From contig JANWZN010000009.1 of the NCBI GenBank assembly GCA_025054575.1, positions 1-40,710 of the forward strand: a stretch of DNA of 40,710 nucleotides, read 5' to 3'. Under the pieces are notes generated by a model, which worked only from the letters and a program-made list of their open reading frames with translations, was not told the origin of the DNA and ran no database searches. Positions within the stretch are counted from its first letter, which is position 1, and every line of letters begins with the position of its first letter. Shown one piece after another: positions 6,442 through 18,760 of this stretch. The stretch is from Geminicoccaceae bacterium. Lineage in GTDB: Bacteria > Pseudomonadota > Alphaproteobacteria > Geminicoccales > Geminicoccaceae. The position numbers and the translations under genes are program-made.

Positions 6442-6588
<147 letters not shown>

Positions 6589-8733: not shown

Positions 8734-9177
8734 TCTGCGCGCGATCGGCCCCGGCAAGAGGCGGAGGCTGACGGGCAGCTGGTCGACATACTGGCCCTCG
8801 AGGACCGCCCGCTGGCGGGGGATCAGCCCGTAGACGGTGAGCCGCGTCGGCCGGCGGCCGTCGTTCTCGGCCTCGACCGCTGCCCCCTCCCGCCCGCCGT
8901 CGCCCCACGGACGGCGATGGCCCGGATCGGCGTAGAGCCGATAGCGCAGTCTTCCGCCCGCAGGGCCGACGAGCTCGCGTTCGGGGCCGCCCGGGATCGC
9001 CACCGCGAAGCTGGTCGGCCGATCGCAGCGGACGACGATTTCACCCTTGCCGAAGCTCTTGCGGGACAGATCGATCCGGCCGAAGGCGACCGGGCGGACG
9101 TCGACCGAGCAGTCGGCGGCGATCGCCGGCGTTGCGGCCAGAAGGACGATCAGCGCAGCGAGCCGCCACCGGATCAT
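8725..9177 (-). CDS. Csu-type pilus subunit (spore coat U domain), terminal gene
   Basis: Secreted single-domain protein of 150 residues with a Sec signal (LAALIVLLAATPAIAA). It is related to the spore-coat-U/CsuA-B family of archaic chaperone-usher subunits: an early Cys (ADCSVDV), a second Cys after about 30 residues (VVRCDRP), and a late YVDQLPVSL strand like the YSDTITIT of CsuA/B. The ATG at 9177 overlaps the usher stop as ATGA, so translation is coupled; a GTG two codons upstream is an alternative. In Acinetobacter the last gene, csuE, encodes a longer two-domain tip adhesin. This one is too short for two domains, so it is either a minor pilin or a reduced tip subunit. Confidence 0.8.
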   Translation of the reverse strand: MIRWRLAALIVLLAATPAIAADCSVDVRPVAFGRIDLSRKSFGKGEIVVRCDRPTSFAVAIPGGPERELVGPAGGRLRYRLYADPGHRRPWGDGGREGAAVEAENDGRRPTRLTVYGLIPRQRAVLEGQYVDQLPVSLRLLPGPIARRKR

Positions 9178-11882
9178 CGGCACGCGATGGTCCCGAGATC
9201 GGGCAGGAGCTCGCCCTCGGCGCCGGCCGGGAGCGCGCAGCGCACGATGGCGCCGGCAGCGAGCCGAGCCTGGAGCTCGACCGGTCGGTCGAGCGGCCCC
9301 TCGACCTGGGCGAAGCCGTCCCGGCCGAGGAGGGCGGTGGTCGTGCCGTCGGCGCTCGCGAGCTCGAGCCCGGCCGGCAGCGGGCGGCCGTCGGGCCCGC
9401 GCAGGATCGCGGTCGCCTGGCGTCGCCGGTCGACGGGAAAGCCGATGCGGACCCCGCTGCGGTCGTAGGGCACGGCTGCGACCTCGGTCTTGGCGATACC
9501 CGCTTCGAGCGGCAGATCGTCGAGTTCGAGGCGGACCTTGTTGACCTCGTAAGGCCGCAGACCGGGCAGCAGGAGCTTGCCGTCGGCATCGGTCCGGCCG
9601 ACCTCGCGATTGTCGAGGTACACTCGAACGTTGGGGAAGCCGGGGACGTCGACGAGGCCGAAGGCCTGCCCCAACCGGCGCGAAGCGCGCAGCGTGCCGT
9701 CGACCAGTGCCAAGCTGCCCTCGACCCCGAGGCGGGCCCGGTTCTCCTCGTCGAAGCGCTCGGCATCGAGCGCGACCGCGCCGAGGCTGCCCTGGTAGCT
9801 CACGCGCGCATCGTAGCTGCGGGGCGCATCGCCCACCTCGGCAGCCAGGCGCACATCGAAGCCGAGATCGGAAGCGCCGCGGGTCCGGCGATATTGGATG
9901 CGGCCGTTCTGGCGCTCGTCGCGCAGCCGCGCCTCGGCCGTCACGCTGCTCTGCGGGCCGAGCGGGACGGTGTAGATCGCGGTCACGGCCAGGTCCCGAT
10001 CCGGCCGTATGGTCTGGCCGGCATTCACGAGCAGGGTGCCCGGTCCGATCGGGAGCGACCAGGAGGCGGCCGCGATCGTTCGATCCTCGCGACCCTCGTT
10101 GTCCTCGTTGGCGAGCAGAAGGCCCAGTCGGCCGACGGCGCCGAGATCGACGCCGAGATTGACCTGGTCGACGCGCCGGGTGTCGGCGCGGCCCCCGAGC
10201 TCGCGCCAGTCATCGCTCGTCAGGCGGGTGCGGGCGCCGAAGCTCCAATCCCGGCCGAGATATTCGTAGGCGAGCTGGCCCATGAGGCCCGGCCCGTCGT
10301 CGGCGTCGTGGCTGGCGCCGAGCCCGGCCGTGAGCGTGCCCCACAAGCCCAGGCGCAGAGCACCGCCCAGAACGAGACCCTGGCGCTCGGCCTGGACGAC
10401 GGCGCGGACCTCGCCCGTGAGCTCGTCGGTGAGCCCGTAACGATGGGTTGCGGAGAGCAGCGCATCGCCGTAGCGGAAGCTCTCGCGGCCGTAGCGGCGG
10501 CGCTCGAAGCCCGCCTCGTAAGAATAGTCGTGCAGGCCGGCCTTGAGGTTGCGCGCACTCACGTAATAGGGCTGGGTGACGATCCGCTCGCGGCCCAGCA
10601 GATCGGTGACGCGGAGCTGAACCTCGCCGGCCCCGGTCACGACCGGCAGGTTCTGGAAGCGGAACGGTCCCGGCGGCAGCTCACCGGTCGAGCGCTTGAG
10701 ATTGTCGATGAAGACCTCGACGACCGAGGATTGCTCGACCAGGCCGCCGATCGCCGGCAGGGGGAAGGTGACGAAGCCCGGGTCGGTGGCGAAGTTGGTG
10801 GCCCACTGGAGGCCGCCGAAGCGAACCGGTGCCGCGAAGCTCCCTGCGCCAGTGAGGCTGTCGCCGATCCGCAAGGACGCTCGCCATTCCGGAAAATCCT
10901 TGGTGAACCGGCTCTCGAGGCGGATCGCCTCGGGATCGTCGAGGAGATCGTCGAAGAGCGCGCTCGTCGTGAGCACGCCCGGAGGGCCGAACAGGCCGAG
11001 CTCGACGAGCCCGTCGATCCGCTCCTCGACCCCCTGACCCACGGTCGCGAGCAGATCGTAGTCGAGAAAGGCGCCGACGCCCGTCGAGGGCGGTGGCCCC
11101 GGCTCCGGACCCTCCTCGAGCGCGAAGGTCTCGAACGCCTCGGCCGGGAGGTCGAGGGCGAGCGTCAGCGCCTCGCGATCGAGCAGGACGCGGGTGGCAC
11201 CCAGTCGGTCTAGCGGCACGAACGGCTCGCCCTGGAGGGTGAGCACGTCCGCAGGATCGATCCGCACCCGCCAGAGCCGGAGCTGGGCGACGGCCAAGGC
11301 GAGTCGGCCGCTCCCCGGCTCTTCGGCGACCAGGCTACCCGGCGACACCTCCTGGCCGTTCAGGGTCACGGCCAACACCCACTCGCGCCAGCCCTCCTCG
11401 GTCAGCGGCGGCTCGATCGGGTCGCGGCGCAGCTCGCGGCGCGGCGGCACGAGCGGACCCGGCTCGCCGACCGGCGGGGTGACGAGCGCTCCCGGCGGCG
11501 GCAAAGGCAGCCGGCTGCGGCGCAGCGCCGGTGCTGCGGGCACCGGGTGATGCTCGGTCGGCGCGCTGGTCGCGGCGGGTGCGGGCGGCGTCGCGTCGGG
11601 CGCCGCCTCCTCCGCCGAAGACGCGGCAGGCTCTTGGGGTACCGATGGTACGGCGGTCGGTCCGGCCGCAGCACGCTCCGGCAACGGAACCGCCCCGTCT
11701 CCCTGGCGGTTGGCGACGATTAGGCGCAGCAAGCGCGCGTCGGCCGGTGTGGCAGTTCCGCTCGCGCGCTCCAGCGCGTCCTCGGGGCCGCTCGCCGACA
11801 GCCCGGACCAGAGGGCGAACAGGCCGGCCGCTCCCGCGAGGCTAGCCGCCCTGAAGGGGGACGACGAGGTCGAGATCGCCAA
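9174..11882 (-). CDS. Outer-membrane usher, FimD/CsuD type, with long Pro-rich N-terminal extension
   Basis: Pilus assembly usher of about 900 residues. The N-terminal domain begins near residue 164 (WREWVLAVTLNGQEV) and is followed by a barrel with usher landmarks such as LGDSLTGAGSF-like RIGDSLTGAGSF, FPLPAIGG, VEVFIDN, GPFRFQNLPVV and QPYYVSARNL. The plug and C-terminal domains follow (NVRVYLDN, LPGLRPYEVNKV). Before this is an unusual stretch of about 130 residues rich in Pro, Ala and Glu after a hydrophobic segment (LAGAAGLFALWSGL). The start is uncertain: I chose TTG at 11882, which overlaps the chaperone gene by 41 bases, because no ATG or GTG lies suitably close to the hydrophobic segment. 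Ends in a final Cys pair region. Confidence 0.85.
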   Translation of the reverse strand: MAISTSSSPFRAASLAGAAGLFALWSGLSASGPEDALERASGTATPADARLLRLIVANRQGDGAVPLPERAAAGPTAVPSVPQEPAASSAEEAAPDATPPAPAATSAPTEHHPVPAAPALRRSRLPLPPPGALVTPPVGEPGPLVPPRRELRRDPIEPPLTEEGWREWVLAVTLNGQEVSPGSLVAEEPGSGRLALAVAQLRLWRVRIDPADVLTLQGEPFVPLDRLGATRVLLDREALTLALDLPAEAFETFALEEGPEPGPPPSTGVGAFLDYDLLATVGQGVEERIDGLVELGLFGPPGVLTTSALFDDLLDDPEAIRLESRFTKDFPEWRASLRIGDSLTGAGSFAAPVRFGGLQWATNFATDPGFVTFPLPAIGGLVEQSSVVEVFIDNLKRSTGELPPGPFRFQNLPVVTGAGEVQLRVTDLLGRERIVTQPYYVSARNLKAGLHDYSYEAGFERRRYGRESFRYGDALLSATHRYGLTDELTGEVRAVVQAERQGLVLGGALRLGLWGTLTAGLGASHDADDGPGLMGQLAYEYLGRDWSFGARTRLTSDDWRELGGRADTRRVDQVNLGVDLGAVGRLGLLLANEDNEGREDRTIAAASWSLPIGPGTLLVNAGQTIRPDRDLAVTAIYTVPLGPQSSVTAEARLRDERQNGRIQYRRTRGASDLGFDVRLAAEVGDAPRSYDARVSYQGSLGAVALDAERFDEENRARLGVEGSLALVDGTLRASRRLGQAFGLVDVPGFPNVRVYLDNREVGRTDADGKLLLPGLRPYEVNKVRLELDDLPLEAGIAKTEVAAVPYDRSGVRIGFPVDRRRQATAILRGPDGRPLPAGLELASADGTTTALLGRDGFAQVEGPLDRPVELQARLAAGAIVRCALPAGAEGELLPDLGTIACR

Positions 11883-12552
11883 GGTTGGTCTCGGCGCGCA
11901 GGGCCAAGGCGCGCGTGCCGTCGAGCCGGAGCCCGGCCAACGACCAGCGATGCGAACGGCCGGCCAGCACATAGGTCGGGCCGTCGCCGACCGGCACGGC
12001 ACGGCCGCCCAGAACGAGCTCGAGACGGCGGACGTGGAGGTGGGCGCGACCACCGTTCGCGACGACCAGGCTCGGGCCGTCGGCGCCGCGCTCGGCCGTC
12101 CACCGCGGCTCGGCGCGGGCATCGGGCGGGGTCACGAACACCGGCAGGCTGATTCGCAACGCCAGACGGACACCCCCCGCGCCCTCGGTCTGCGGTACCT
12201 CCGTGACCAGGACACGATAGGTCTCTTCCACCGCCGGCGGCTCGGTGCTGCGGCGCGCCACGCGAACGATCTGCCGCTCGCCCGCTGCCAGTCGGACCAT
12301 CGGTGGGACCGCGACGATCGCCCTGGTCGGCTCGAGCTCCTCGCTCGCCGGGCCGGACCGCCAGGCGAAGGTCTCGACCTGCAGCAAGAGCGGCGCGTCG
12401 CCGTCGTTGGTGACCGTAAGGGCGGCTGCCGGTCGGCCGGGCACCAGCTCGAGCCGGGTGGGCGAGACCCCGAGGGTCGCCGCCCAGGGCCCTTCGCCCG
12501 AGACGTTCGAGACGACCACGAGCCCGACTAGAAGAAACCGGCACCACCGCAT
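11842..12552 (-). CDS. Periplasmic pilus chaperone (PapD/CsuC type)
   Basis: Fimbrial chaperone of 236 residues. It starts MRWCRFLLVGLVVVSNVSG, an export signal. The first immunoglobulin-like domain has SPTRLELVPGRPAAALTVTN-type strands, then VETFAWR and the subunit-binding G1 region VPPMVRLAAGERQIVRVARR, which ends in the conserved basic residue. The second domain includes LPVFVTPPDA and LVVANGGRAHLHVRRL. The family donates a strand to pilins to stop premature folding and delivers them to the usher. The gene lies 8 bases after the pilin gene and overlaps the usher. The true start was placed at the ATG at 12552 because the frame upstream overlaps the pilin gene. Confidence 0.9.
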   Translation of the reverse strand: MRWCRFLLVGLVVVSNVSGEGPWAATLGVSPTRLELVPGRPAAALTVTNDGDAPLLLQVETFAWRSGPASEELEPTRAIVAVPPMVRLAAGERQIVRVARRSTEPPAVEETYRVLVTEVPQTEGAGGVRLALRISLPVFVTPPDARAEPRWTAERGADGPSLVVANGGRAHLHVRRLELVLGGRAVPVGDGPTYVLAGRSHRWSLAGLRLDGTRALALRAETNLGDLDLVVPLQGG

Positions 12553-12560
12553 GGCGCGGC

Positions 12561-13061
12561 TCAAAAGCGAAGGGTGATCGTGATCGTGTCGCTGTAGCTG
12601 CCCGGCGGAACCGATTGGTTTCTCGGGATCCGGCCGTAGACGGGCACCGAGCCGTTGCCGGCCGCGAGGAGCTGCTGCGCGTTGGCCTCGCTTCCCGATC
12701 CCCACCTGAGGGTACGACCTGCGTTCCGGAAAATCTCGTAGACGAGGAAGTTGCTACCGGACCTCATCCGTCGCTGGGTACCATTCGCGTTCTGCCCGTT
12801 GTCGAGCTCGAAGGTGAGCGTACCGGTCGGGCAGTTCGTGTAGTCGATCTGCCCCTGGGCATCGAGATCGGTCGACTGTCCGGAGCCGTAGGCCCTGAAC
12901 GCCAGGGTACCGCCCGAGATCGAGCAACTGCTCTCGACGGTCGCCGTGACCGTCAAGGTTCCGGTCACCGTCTGCGTCTGCGTCTGGGCCGCGGCCGTAA
13001 AAGCGCACGCCCAGCTCGCCACGAGCCCTGCCGCGGCGATCCCGATCCTCCTCCGAGCCAT
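12561..13061 (-). CDS. Major pilin, spore coat U domain (CsuA/B-like)
   Basis: Secreted pilin of 166 residues. The signal peptide (IGIAAAGLVASWACAFTAAAQ) is followed by Thr-rich strands and the SCPU core: VESSCSISGGTLAF, a second Cys in YTNCPTG, and the C-terminal YSDTITITLRF, the classic ending of CsuA/B-like subunits. Two Cys can form the subunit disulfide. The ATG has a GGGAG site about 9 bases upstream. It is the first gene of a four-gene set (pilin, chaperone, usher, second subunit) whose homologues build thin archaic chaperone-usher pili used in attachment and biofilm formation. Confidence 0.88.
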   Translation of the reverse strand: MARRRIGIAAAGLVASWACAFTAAAQTQTQTVTGTLTVTATVESSCSISGGTLAFRAYGSGQSTDLDAQGQIDYTNCPTGTLTFELDNGQNANGTQRRMRSGSNFLVYEIFRNAGRTLRWGSGSEANAQQLLAAGNGSVPVYGRIPRNQSVPPGSYSDTITITLRF

Positions 13062-13131
13062 GATCCTGTCTCCCTTCGCGTTGCGTTGGCGAGGGCTCGA
13101 CGTTCCTTGGTCGCGCAAGGCGACGCCCGCG

Positions 13132-13160
13132 AAGATACCTTTATGGTTGAGCAAAATCAA
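13132..13160 (-). promoter_or_regulatory. Candidate sigma-70 promoter of the pilus operon
   Basis: On the minus strand TTGATT (13160-13155) and TATCTT (13137-13132) are separated by 17 bases in an AT-rich island unusual for this GC-rich window. Transcription would start near 13125, about 65 bases before the pilin start. The -35 element lies inside the last codons of the upstream kinase gene. No mapping data. Confidence 0.4.
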
Positions 13161-14835
13161 GGATACTCTCGCTTTGGGAGAGACGCTCTGGCCGCGCGTG
13201 CCGCTCGACCGCCGCCGCGAGGCTCGCGCCGTCGATCGGCTTGGTGAGACAGCCGTCCATGCCGGCCGCCCGACAACGCTGCTCGTCGCCAGGCATCGCA
13301 TTGGCGGTCACCGCGACCACCGGGACGCGGGCCTTGCCAAGATCGGGCAGGGCGCGGATCCGCCGGGTCGTCTCGAGCCCGTCGAGCCCCGGCATCTGCA
13401 TGTCCATGAGCACGAGGTCGAAGGGCTCGGCGGCCAGGCGAGCGAGCGCCGCCTCGCCGCTCTGCACGCTCGCGACACGGTGACCGGCGCGCTCGAGCAG
13501 CAAGCCGAGCAGCCTGCAGTTGAGGGGATTGTCGTCGACCACGAGGATCCGCAGCGCCGGTCCGCCTCGCTCGACCAGGCTGTGGCGGGTCACGATCGCA
13601 GAGGGTGGCCCGCCGCGCAGCGCCCGCAGGCAGGCCATCAAGGTCTCGGCTGCGAGCGGCTTTTCGAGATAGGCAGCGAACCCGGCCGCTTCGGCTCGCC
13701 GCGCGTCGCCTCGCAGACCGGCCGGTGCGGCGAGCACGAGGCGGGTTGCGGCCAGTGCCGGCGCGTTGCGGATCCGTTGGGCGAGCTCGGCCGGCTCGGG
13801 GTCGCGGAGTTGGGCGTCGATCAAGGCGAGATCGAAGGGCGATCCCCGGTCGGCCGCCTCGTTGAGGAGCGCCAGCGCCTCCCGCCCGGTGGCCGCGGTC
13901 CGCACGGTCATGCCCCACAGACTCGCGAGATCGCGCATCGCGGTGCGGGTGCGCTCGAGCGGGTCGGCGATCAAGAGCTGAGCGCCGGCAAGCGCTGGAG
14001 CAATTTCCGATTGAGTACCGGCTCGTCCGACCGGCAGGCCGACCGGCAGCGCGATTGAGAAGGTCGTCCCGACACCCGGCCGGCTCGTGCAAGCGAGCGT
14101 GCCCCCCATCGCCTCGACGATCCGGCGTGCCAGAACGAGCCCGAGGCCGCTCCCACCATAGAGCCGCCCAGTCGCGGCCGAGGCCTGCGCCCAGGGTCGG
14201 AACAGCCGCGCCAGCTCGGCTTCGCCGATGCCGGGCCCGGTATCGGTTACCGAGAGCAGGAGCAGGACGTCGCGCTGCCCGAGCGTGCGCGCACGGATCG
14301 CCAGGCCGACGCGGCCGCGCTCGGTGAACTTCACCGCGTTGCCGAGCAGGTTGAGGAGGACCTGCCGGAGCCTGCCCGGATCGACCAGCACGCGTTCGGG
14401 CACCGAGCGATCGACCGCCAGCTCGACGGTCAGGCCCTTCTGCCGAGCGCGCGGCGCGACCAGGGCGACCACCCGCTCGACGAACGGCCGCGGCGCGACC
14501 TCGACCGGCGCGAGCTCGAGCCGGCCGGCGTCGATCCGCGAGAGATCGAGAACGTCGTTGACGAGCGTCAAGAGCGCTTCGCCGGAGTCGAGGATCGCCT
14601 CGAGATAGCCACGCTGCTCGGCGTCGAGCGGGGTGTCGCGCAAGAGCCGCCCCATGCCGAGCACGCCGTTCAAGGGCTCGCGCAGCTCGTGGCTCATCGT
14701 CGCGAGGAAATCGGCGCGCGCTCGCGCGACCGCCTCGGCCCGCCGAGCGCGCCGGCGCAGACAAGAGCGCTCACGCCGCACGATGCGCTCGCGGCGCGCC
14801 GTGCCGTCCCCGTTCCCGCCCCTCGCCCCGGTCAT
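13141..14835 (-). CDS. Hybrid sensor histidine kinase with two receiver domains
   Basis: Cytoplasmic hybrid histidine kinase of 564 residues. There is no membrane segment or PAS sensor: after about 40 basic residues comes the dimerisation/phosphoacceptor helix with H49 in ATMSHELREPLNG. The ATPase domain has an N box (LLNLLGNAVKFTE) and glycine boxes (VTDTGPGIG, GSGLGLVLARR). Two receiver domains follow. The first (about residues 285-400) is divergent, with IADPLE in place of the usual acidic pair and a candidate Asp in FDLALIDAQ. The second is canonical (LVVDDNP, LVLMDMQMPG, LTKPI). The ATG at 14835 has a strong AGGAGA site. It lies 79 bases upstream of the pilus operon in the same orientation, so control of pilus production is plausible but unproven. 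No Hpt domain is present. Confidence 0.9.
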   Translation of the reverse strand: MTGARGGNGDGTARRERIVRRERSCLRRRARRAEAVARARADFLATMSHELREPLNGVLGMGRLLRDTPLDAEQRGYLEAILDSGEALLTLVNDVLDLSRIDAGRLELAPVEVAPRPFVERVVALVAPRARQKGLTVELAVDRSVPERVLVDPGRLRQVLLNLLGNAVKFTERGRVGLAIRARTLGQRDVLLLLSVTDTGPGIGEAELARLFRPWAQASAATGRLYGGSGLGLVLARRIVEAMGGTLACTSRPGVGTTFSIALPVGLPVGRAGTQSEIAPALAGAQLLIADPLERTRTAMRDLASLWGMTVRTAATGREALALLNEAADRGSPFDLALIDAQLRDPEPAELAQRIRNAPALAATRLVLAAPAGLRGDARRAEAAGFAAYLEKPLAAETLMACLRALRGGPPSAIVTRHSLVERGGPALRILVVDDNPLNCRLLGLLLERAGHRVASVQSGEAALARLAAEPFDLVLMDMQMPGLDGLETTRRIRALPDLGKARVPVVAVTANAMPGDEQRCRAAGMDGCLTKPIDGASLAAAVERHARPERLSQSESILDFAQP

Positions 14836-14971
14836 GCCCGTCTCCTGCGCCCTGTCGGGCGTCGAGACGGACCTTACACCGCTCCTAGCCGGCGGCTGTG
14901 GGAAAAACCAACCAGGGCGGGATTCCGGAGAGCTAGGCTCCCGTTTTGCGCGAGCGCTACACGCGCCCGCC

Positions 14972-15874
14972 TCACTCCTTGACCGCGCCCGTGAGGCTCG
15001 AGACGTAGTACTCGACGAAGAACGAATAGAAGAGCGCCACCGGGATCGAGCCGAGCAGGGCACCGGCCATCAACGAGCCCCAGTGGTAGACATCGCCTTC
15101 TACGAGCTGGGTCAGGACGGCGACCGGGACCGTCTTCTTCTCTGCCGACTGGATGAAGGCGAGTGCGTAGATGAATTCGTTCCAGGACAGCGTGAAGGCG
15201 AAGATACCAGCCGAAATCAGGCCTGGCACGGCGAGTGGTAGCGTGATCTTCCACAAGATTTGCAACCGAGTCGCTCCGTCGATCAGAGCGCATTCCTCGA
15301 GCTCGTAGGGAATCGACTTGAAATAGCCGATCAAGAGCCACGTACAGAACGGGATGAGGAAGGTCGGGTAGGTGAGAATGAGCGCCATGGGGCTGTCGAA
15401 CAGCCCGAGCTGGAAGACCATGGTCGCGAGCGGGATGAACAGGATCGAGGGCGGCACCAAATAGGCCAGATAGATGGCGAGGCCGACCCACTGCGAGCCC
15501 TTGAAACGCAGCCGCTGGATCGCGTACGCCGCGAGCACGCTCGCGAAGATCGACAAGAACGTCGAGACGACGGCCACGGTCATCGTGGTGACCAGCCAGC
15601 TCGGGTAGTCGGTCTCGAACAGGAGTTTGTTGATGTTGGCGAGCGTCGGAGAGCTCACCCAGAACGGATTGAAGTTCTTGTAGTCGTAGAGCTCCTCGTT
15701 CGATTTGAAGGTCGTTATCGCCATCCAATAGAACGGAAACAGCAGGATCACCACGAAGCAGGCGAGCGGCACGTAGATCGTCACGACCCGCCGTGGAAGG
15801 CTGGTCCACTCGATCACCCCGGACCGCTCGGCGTAATAGGCCGGGGCCGGTGCGGTCGCGGCCGACTCAGTCAT
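14972..15874 (-). CDS. Sugar-type ABC transporter permease, MalG-like
   Basis: Inner-membrane permease of 300 residues in the carbohydrate uptake (CUT1) class. Six hydrophobic segments are visible, the first at about residues 30-50 (IYVPLACFVVILLFPFYWM). The EAA loop that docks to the ATPase reads EECALIDGATRLQILWKI. The early segment ITTFKSNEELY is typical of MalG-type subunits. The ATG at 15874 overlaps the end of the MalF-like gene by 8 bases and has a GGAGG site inside it, so the two are translated together. No periplasmic binding protein or ATPase gene lies in the window, so the substrate cannot be inferred. Confidence 0.94.
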   Translation of the reverse strand: MTESAATAPAPAYYAERSGVIEWTSLPRRVVTIYVPLACFVVILLFPFYWMAITTFKSNEELYDYKNFNPFWVSSPTLANINKLLFETDYPSWLVTTMTVAVVSTFLSIFASVLAAYAIQRLRFKGSQWVGLAIYLAYLVPPSILFIPLATMVFQLGLFDSPMALILTYPTFLIPFCTWLLIGYFKSIPYELEECALIDGATRLQILWKITLPLAVPGLISAGIFAFTLSWNEFIYALAFIQSAEKKTVPVAVLTQLVEGDVYHWGSLMAGALLGSIPVALFYSFFVEYYVSSLTGAVKE

Positions 15875-17002: not shown

Positions 17003-18760
17003 ATGCCGGTGTTGGAGACGATCCGGATCGACGGCTCCACGGGTGAAGGCGGCGGCCAGATCTTGCGCACGGCGCTGGCCGTAGCCGCCCTCGCCGCACG
17101 GCCGGTCGAGATCGTACGCATCCGCGAGAGACGGCCGATCCCGGGCCTCGCGGCCCAGCACCTGACCGCCGTGCGCGCGCTCGCCGCCTTGTGCGACGCT
17201 TCGCTCGAGGGCGATGCGCTCGGCTCGCGCGAGCTCCTGTTCGCGCCGCGCGGGCCGGTCCGTGCGGGCAGCTACACGATCGACGTGGGTGCGGCGCGCA
17301 AAGGCGGCAGCGCCGGGGCCGTTTCCTTGGTCCTCCAGGCGATCGCCGTACCCCTGGCACTCGCCCGCGGCAGCTCCGAGCTGCGCCTTTTCGGTGGGAC
17401 GCACGTCCCGTGGAGCCCGAGCTTCGACTATCTCGCCGAGGTCTGGGCCCCCACCCTCGCCCGGACCGGCCTCGCGATCGGCCTCGAGCTCGAGATCTCC
17501 GGCTGGTTTCCGGTCGGACGTGGTGCCGTGCGGGCGCGAATCGAAGGGCGTGCCGGCGCACCACCCTCCCCCGTCTCGCTCATTGAGCGGCCGCCGCTCG
17601 GGCGGATCGAGGGGCATGCGCTCGCCGCCAACCTACCGGCCGAGATCCCCCAGCGGATCGCCGACCGTGCTCGCAAGCTGCTCGAGCCCACCGGTGTGCC
17701 GCTCGCCATCCGGCCCGAACGGGTCAAAGCCGCCTCGCCAGGTGCGGCCTTGTGTCTGGTCGCGCATCACGATACCTGGCGGGCGGGGTTCGATTCCCTG
17801 GGCGCGCCGGGCAAGGCGTCGGAGGTGGTCGCCGAGGAAGCCGCCCACGCCCTGCTCGCGTTCGAGGCCGGCACCGCCGCGCTCGACCGGCACCTGGCCG
17901 ATCAGCTTCTTCTTCCGCTCGCGCTCGCTTCGGGACCCTCGCGCTTCACCACCGAGACGGCGACCGGCCATCTCGAGACCTGCGCCTGGCTCTTGGCCGA
18001 GCTCGGCGTCGCCCGTGTGGTGCTCGAGCCCCGGCCCGAGGGTGGTGTACTCGTCACCGTCGAGCCTCGCGGTCTCGCGATCCCGCACGGCGAGCCCCGC
18101 AGCACCCCGCACGTCCGCGCCGCCCAACCGGAGCCCGACGAGGGCGAGCGCGTGCCCCGACGGCGGGAGCATCGCGCCGCTGTCGAGGTCGGCGCGAGCC
18201 ACGGGCCCCCGCCTCCCGCCCCGATCCCCTGGAACCTGGTCGCGACCGTGCACGCCCAAGCCTGGCGCGAGGCGCTCGGGGTCCTCGGCCGTTACGGGAA
18301 GGTCCGCAAGACCCCCTACTACAACGTCGTCGTGATGGCGGTGGACGATCCGAGAGCCGTGGCCGAAGACCTCGCGCGGCGGATCGCGGCCGAGCCAGGG
18401 CTCATGAACTTCATCTCTCGCGTCGTGCCGCTCGATGCGGCCCTCGAGCTCGGTCCGCTCGAACAGGCCGAAGAGCGCCTGTTCGCGGCCTTCCTCCCGT
18501 TCCTGCCGCGCCTGGCCGGCAAGACCTTCCATGTGCGCGTGCACAAGCGCGGGCCCGGCAAGGCCCTCTCGGCGCACGCGCTCGAACGTGCGCTGGGCGA
18601 GCGGCTGCTGCGGGCGCTCGAGGCCGCCGGCACGCCCGGCCGCCTCGCCTTCGACGATGTCGATCTGATCCTGGTCGTCGAGATCGTCGACCAGCGCGCA
18701 GGTATCGCCGCATTCGATCGCGACGATCGCGCCCGCTTCCCGTTCCTGCGGCTCGATTGA
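17003..18760 (+). CDS. rtcA: RNA 3'-terminal phosphate cyclase fused to TAN1-like THUMP domain
   Basis: One uninterrupted frame of 585 residues with two RNA-related modules. Residues 1 to about 350 are RtcA, which converts an RNA 3'-phosphate to a 2',3'-cyclic phosphate through a covalent His-AMP. The motifs GEGGGQILR (14-22), HLTAVRAL, GGSAGAVSLVLQ and the nucleophile in DRHLADQLLLPLA (H297) are intact. A Pro/Arg-rich linker covers about 355-407. Residues 408-585 resemble the TAN1/archaeal THUMP family: NLVATVHAQAWREAL, then NFISRVVPLDA, then the THUMP core KTFHVRVHKRGPGK (from 507) and DDVDLILVVEIVDQRAGI. THUMP domains bind tRNA acceptor regions. E. coli RtcA has about 338 residues. The start is ATG 17003, but AGGAGG is only 2 bases upstream; GTG at 17009 has better spacing. 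Confidence 0.88.
   Translation: MPVLETIRIDGSTGEGGGQILRTALAVAALAARPVEIVRIRERRPIPGLAAQHLTAVRALAALCDASLEGDALGSRELLFAPRGPVRAGSYTIDVGAARKGGSAGAVSLVLQAIAVPLALARGSSELRLFGGTHVPWSPSFDYLAEVWAPTLARTGLAIGLELEISGWFPVGRGAVRARIEGRAGAPPSPVSLIERPPLGRIEGHALAANLPAEIPQRIADRARKLLEPTGVPLAIRPERVKAASPGAALCLVAHHDTWRAGFDSLGAPGKASEVVAEEAAHALLAFEAGTAALDRHLADQLLLPLALASGPSRFTTETATGHLETCAWLLAELGVARVVLEPRPEGGVLVTVEPRGLAIPHGEPRSTPHVRAAQPEPDEGERVPRRREHRAAVEVGASHGPPPPAPIPWNLVATVHAQAWREALGVLGRYGKVRKTPYYNVVVMAVDDPRAVAEDLARRIAAEPGLMNFISRVVPLDAALELGPLEQAEERLFAAFLPFLPRLAGKTFHVRVHKRGPGKALSAHALERALGERLLRALEAAGTPGRLAFDDVDLILVVEIVDQRAGIAAFDRDDRARFPFLRLD

Follow-up and report, generated by a model that had tools for sequence, protein, structure and literature searches.

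A fused RtcA-THUMP gene in Geminicoccaceae and its possible place in bacterial tRNA repair

The RNA 3'-phosphate cyclase RtcA has a broad RNA-end specificity: by itself it acts on many kinds of RNA terminus, which has long obscured its physiological substrate. In a contig of 40,710 nucleotides from a Geminicoccaceae bacterium (GCA_025054575.1, JANWZN010000009.1; the whole stretch is referred to as the window), a cyclase gene had been predicted to continue in frame into a TAN1-like RNA-binding module. This architecture raises the question of whether the cyclase is a genuine fusion protein and, if so, to which RNA the added module directs it.

The fusion gene and its cyclase part

The gene (17003..18760, forward strand) runs from the ATG at 17003 to the TGA at 18758-18760 in one uninterrupted frame of 585 codons, corresponding to 585 amino acids plus the stop. 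From N- to C-terminus, it encodes an entire RtcA cyclase, a Pro/Arg linker predicted to be disordered, and a module consisting of an N-terminal ferredoxin-like part (NFLD) and a THUMP domain. The original prediction of RtcA joined in frame through a linker to a TAN1-like module was thereby upheld, the module being NFLD plus THUMP without a catalytic domain. The same two-domain fusion was found in all genomes of this genus within the Geminicoccaceae (6/6), with sister proteins 74-77% identical to the window protein over their full length. Several of the fusion-bearing Geminicoccaceae are known only from metagenomes. In the Geminicoccaceae bacterium KatS3mg117, the fusion lies on a single complete contig of 3.76 Mb. 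Since the frame is unbroken in six genomes, one of them a single complete contig, the gene does not result from an assembly frameshift that merged two genes, which had been named as a possible artefact.

Among 31 genomes of the family, the fusion was present in six, all of this genus, and a stand-alone RtcA in five others; no RtcA was seen in the remaining genomes of this set. In a tree of RtcA sequences, the fusions group as a single clade (support 100/100), which is sister to four stand-alone RtcAs from the same family, and the next branches outward are alphaproteobacterial RtcAs adjoining a THUMP gene. No relative was found in the viral contigs searched. A literature search of incomplete coverage returned no description of an RtcA-THUMP fusion, in line with the original prediction, according to which none is known to have been described. 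The parts and their chemistry are known already, and it is the combination of RtcA and THUMP that appears to be new.

The cyclase domain (residues about 5-355, 17015..18067, forward strand) was assigned by Pfam RTC (E-value 7e-67, 225 bits versus a cut-off of 27, N-terminal part), by NCBIfam TIGR03399 (345 bits versus a cut-off of 250, E-value 3.6e-103) and by matches to the structures 4o89 (archaeal, 5.5e-56) and 1qmh (Escherichia coli, 1.5e-43). The RTC insert domain (PF05189) occupies residues 195-286 (17585..17860, forward strand; E-value 2e-19, 70 bits versus a cut-off of 23). Like the RtcAs of these two structures, the fusion has the whole cyclase, the insert domain, the GEGGGQ motif (GEGGGQILR at residues 14-22), the DQ motif (D300 and Q301) and the catalytic histidine; it differs from them by the C-terminal NFLD and THUMP and by an inserted AARKGG. 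The catalytic residue had been placed at H297, which was incorrect: H297 aligns with a tyrosine of E. coli RtcA, and the alignment to 1qmh assigns the catalytic His309 of that enzyme to H323 in the motif TGHLET (codon 17969..17971, forward strand). H323 and the DQ motif are invariant in all six fusions. Judged by its residues, the RtcA active site is intact in the fusion, and cyclisation activity is predicted.

The six-residue insertion AARKGG (window 17285-17310, about residues 95-102) lies ahead of SAG in a loop whose sequence in other RtcAs is IGSAGS or DIGTAGS. A six-residue insertion at this place is shared by the RtcAs of the genus and those of related alphaproteobacteria.

The C-terminal module and the linker

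The C-terminal 176 residues score 14 bits against the Pfam THUMP family (PF02926), for which the gathering cut-off is 20.6 bits, and on account of this sub-threshold score the assignment was probed by further methods. Pfam THUMP is matched by 29 of 52 relatives (best 3.9e-6), and one stand-alone relative clears the cut-off with 22.2 bits. When 398 genomes were scanned with a profile of the family, ThiI was recovered in two unrelated ones (9e-10 and 8e-9), and hhalign to ThiI reached a probability of 96.9%. The C-terminal part gave no useful match in sequence searches of the PDB. The AlphaFold model of the module has a mean pLDDT of 95.2 and matches TrmN (Z 13.3), CDAT8 (13.1), Trm14 (12.0), RNA-bound ThiI (11.8), Trm11 (11.7) and human THUMPD1 (2dir, 9.8). 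These matches span both the ferredoxin-like part and the THUMP domain, and the VIA-align alignments to TrmN, Trm14 and ThiI begin at model residue 1 or 2. Profile and fold comparison both returned THUMP, and according to the model the C-terminal part has the NFLD and THUMP fold. The NFLD corresponds to model residues 1-70 (18230..18439, forward strand; AlphaFold model and VIA-align), the THUMP domain with its FHVRVHKRG motif to model residues 77-172 (18458..18745, forward strand; Foldseek, VIA and hhalign to ThiI). No ThiI or other separate THUMP enzyme turned up in the window's genome, in a weak search that missed the fused domain as well.

This arrangement resembles ThiI, Trm14/TrmN, Trm11 and CDAT8, in which a module binding the tRNA 3' end, as predicted for the fusion, is joined to a catalytic domain, and CDAT8 likewise carries its THUMP at the C-terminus. 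Unlike in these enzymes, the catalytic partner is an RNA-end cyclase and the linker is long and disordered. A second resemblance is to TAN1/THUMPD1, where NFLD is followed by THUMP in a module without its own modification domain. Together with the fold match to THUMPD1 (2dir), it would allow the fused part to be a TAN1-type cytidine-acetylation adaptor that was joined to RtcA by happenstance. However, a match to the NAT10/TmcA helicase family (PF05127) was found neither in the window's genome (a draft, 96% complete) nor in four sister genomes, one of them a single contig, and among 32 other THUMP-bearing genomes only two gave a strong match, the rest none or a weak one. With the partner not found in these five genomes of the genus, the acetylation analogy drawn in the original prediction is unsupported, and we regard such a role as next to negligible in probability. 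The module also differs from TAN1/THUMPD1 in being joined to a cyclase, in belonging to a bacterial family and in its low identity; TAN1/THUMPD1 carry no other catalytic domain, which is true of the stand-alone relatives and not of the fusion.

The Pro/Arg/Ala-rich linker (residues about 370-408, 18110..18226, forward strand) is mostly predicted to be disordered and varies in length. A model of the full-length protein contains two well-predicted domains separated by disordered residues 378-404 (pLDDT under 50). Pairwise dN/dS was 0.17-0.33 for the cyclase and 0.09-0.33 for the THUMP part, compared to about 0.5-1.4 for the linker (residues 356-408). These values indicate purifying selection on the two domains and nearly neutral evolution of the linker, which argues that both domains are used.

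The branch of the fused THUMP domain is long (1.05 changes per site), and the domain has HKRGPGK in place of the HRRGFKG of the stand-alone family, retaining FHVRxHxRG; therefore, its ligand or function may have changed. This divergence, together with the breadth of RNA ends that RtcA accepts, would fit a module that confers general RNA affinity or stability without selecting tRNA, so that RtcA is boosted on any RNA with a 3'-phosphate. We consider this quite unlikely, as the THUMP part is as conserved among the fusions as the cyclase (mean identity 78% versus 76%), FHVRxHxRG is kept, and the stand-alone form is repeatedly linked to RNA-repair and tRNA-processing genes, as described below.

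Stand-alone relatives and their gene neighbourhoods

A scan of 84,980 species genomes yielded 69 loci, of which five were the fusion and 64 encoded the THUMP module without RtcA. The named organisms belong to Pseudomonadota, Thermodesulfobacteriota, Nitrospirota, Cyanobacteriota, Myxococcota, Acidobacteriota and Planctomycetota. TAN1-like proteins had been described at the outset as known mainly from archaea and eukaryotes; the module instead is a member of a THUMP family that spans bacteria of at least seven phyla. Once one duplicate genome and the fusion genome had been removed, 32 distinct genomes carrying a stand-alone THUMP gene were compared. RtcA was encoded in 26 of them, versus 19/398 in a sample of the phylum, RtcB in 30/32 and archease in 18/21, all counts ignoring the kinship of the genomes. 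RtcB is common in bacteria anyway, and some genomes with a stand-alone THUMP gene lack RtcA.

Six loci, representing about three separate lineages, have rtcA at most 100 bp away from the stand-alone THUMP gene; the other 58 of the 64 have no rtcA at this distance. The two genes are convergent in three alphaproteobacterial loci (L028, L036, L050), THUMP precedes rtcA on the same strand in L038 and L070, and in L072 rtcA comes first on the same strand, as in the fusion. The adjacency in related alphaproteobacteria means that a chance rearrangement could have fused neighbouring genes without any functional coupling. We judge a neutral fusion of this kind to be very improbable: six species have kept it, the dN/dS of both domains is low, and the genes are convergent in the relatives, so that simple read-through would not suffice.

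The neighbourhoods extend to further RNA-repair genes. In L070, THUMP, rtcA, archease and rtcB stand in one row; in L080, archease and rtcB follow about 1 kb downstream of THUMP, and in L057 rtcB lies just upstream of it. RNase Z-like metallo-beta-lactamases of family NF002558 (PRK02126) are encoded directly upstream of rtcA in the three convergent loci (L028:4649-5665, L036:9605-10792, L050:9601-10782), and their relatives directly upstream of THUMP in three others (L077:6979-7992, L081:220-1260, L084:6673-7992). The HxHxDH motif is intact in all six, and the three stand-alone genes tested (L028, L036, L077) scored 393-440 bits versus a cut-off of 315. In three further loci, next to or near THUMP, a CLP1_P polynucleotide kinase domain is fused in frame to an NF002558-like RNase Z-like domain (L072:3454-5508, L073:9633-11762, L082:5523-7517). 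The metal-binding HxHxDH and Walker A motifs are intact in these RNase Z-like and CLP1_P proteins, and the fused form is possibly an enzyme that cuts and phosphorylates RNA. Bacterial Clp1 proteins are rare, reported for about 0.9% of complete genomes (PMC6777427). ARAGORN detected no tRNA gene near the THUMP loci.

The natural fusion and the recurrent proximity of the free module to genes for RtcA, RtcB-archease, RNase Z-like and Clp1-like proteins suggest a new bacterial RNA-repair accessory protein. No paper tying THUMP to RtcB or archease was found in a search of incomplete coverage, and the linkage of the stand-alone THUMP gene may have been noticed earlier.

Two observations on these genomes stand apart. 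In the genome of L038 (G326), rtcA is present twice: one copy lies on another contig with genes for RtcB and RtcR next to it, and the second adjoins the THUMP gene; archease was not found in this genome. In addition, a CapA-type metallophosphatase gene (PGA_cap) lies next to or near the THUMP gene in 15 loci from several phyla (L076:8550-9764, L051:2473-4320, L040:5583-6797 and about 12 others), in Nitrosomonas directly downstream of it.

A cyclase directed to broken tRNA

RtcB was found on another contig of the window's genome and in four sister genomes, and in KatS3mg117 an archease gene lies immediately upstream of rtcB. RtcB and archease thus occur together in the genus, with archease seen in KatS3mg117, and as in known RtcB/archease and RtcR-rtcBA systems the same chemistry is expected. 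The fusion gene itself is solitary throughout the genus, with rtcB on another contig or far away and no shared operon. No RtcR (PF06956) turned up in any of the genus's six genomes; on this result, and with rtcA not beside rtcB, we rejected an RtcR-regulated rtcBA operon for the genus. Unlike in that arrangement, the cyclase gene stands apart from rtcB and is fused to THUMP.

RtcA and RtcB act on cleaved tRNA and have been implicated in tRNA repair in Salmonella (PMC7790460). RtcB is activated by archease (PMC3973293), and THUMP folds bind the 3'/CCA end of tRNA, a mode of binding that was reported for ThiI and Trm11 and, from modelling, for CDAT8 (reviewed in PMC9957541). Given that THUMP and rtcA adjoin other RNA-repair genes in other bacteria, the fusion is probably a cyclase delivered to broken tRNA. 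More specifically, we propose, with a probability of roughly 0.55, that it is a tRNA-targeted 3'-phosphate cyclase acting upstream of archease-activated RtcB, its tRNA specificity being read from module and gene context. The original prediction of a cyclase targeted to tRNA is strengthened by the rtcA, archease-rtcB, RNase Z-like and Clp1-like neighbours and by the tRNA-end binding of THUMP, whereas its example of a toxin-cut tRNA as substrate is something we infer.

In the proposed mechanism, whose docking, linker reach, cyclisation and sealing steps we infer, NFLD and THUMP would dock on a damaged tRNA at its acceptor/CCA end, in the manner of ThiI, Trm14, Trm11 and CDAT8. The flexible linker would then allow the cyclase to reach the 3'-phosphate (or 2'-phosphate) that a nuclease left on the broken strand and, with ATP, to convert this terminal phosphate to a 2',3'-cyclic phosphate. 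Archease-activated RtcB, for which the cyclic phosphate is a substrate, would finally seal the break. In most other bacteria with the module, a separate THUMP protein may act in trans with RtcA or RtcB.

The break in the damaged tRNA may lie in the anticodon loop or at the acceptor end. THUMP and RtcA may compete when they meet on one terminus, and therefore action away from the CCA end is favoured. The alternative is an enzyme that cyclises 3'-phosphorylated, truncated or misprocessed acceptor ends instead of anticodon-loop breaks and belongs, with an RNase Z-like nuclease, to a set for the maturation or quality control of tRNA 3' ends. Such a set would account for the stand-alone THUMP genes with a neighbour of the RNase Z-like family NF002558, a tRNA 3'-end enzyme class with HxHxDH intact, and for the recognition of 3' ends by THUMP (PMC9957541). 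We nevertheless find it unlikely, given that no RNase Z-like gene was found in the fusion's own neighbourhood and that the co-occurrence with RtcB and archease points to ligation. Moreover, RNase Z normally leaves a 3'-OH and not a 3'-phosphate.

Returning to the tRNA-repair reading, the natural fusion and the repeated linkage of the free module to repair genes make tRNA a concrete, testable substrate of RtcA. Gene linkage and co-occurrence also suggest a general accessory role of NFLD and THUMP in Rtc repair. In its widest form, which we hold to be possible but less likely than not, the bacterial NFLD-THUMP protein would serve archease-type Rtc repair as a dedicated subunit for tRNA docking, hitherto unrecognised and revealed by the Geminicoccaceae fusion. 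In some lineages a nuclease resembling RNase Z and a kinase of the Clp1 type would take part, and the fused cyclase would hold the broken tRNA by its intact CCA end and heal the break elsewhere.

The only tRNA gene of the window, a tRNA-His (GTG) at 6497-6573 on the reverse strand, is far from the fusion. An apparent chaperone-usher fimbrial cluster with usher, chaperone and pilin-like genes (9174-13301, reverse strand) is adjoined by a hybrid histidine kinase gene (13141-15063). A single-sequence search had also returned four matches in sister genera and one further member of the class (L007-L010), which were rejected as spurious: they fall in GC-rich sequence and have no RtcA frame, L007-L009 lying on histidine-kinase genes and L010 on another unrelated gene. 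A similar order of kinase, pilin and chaperone genes is found in a sister genus (L008, L009).
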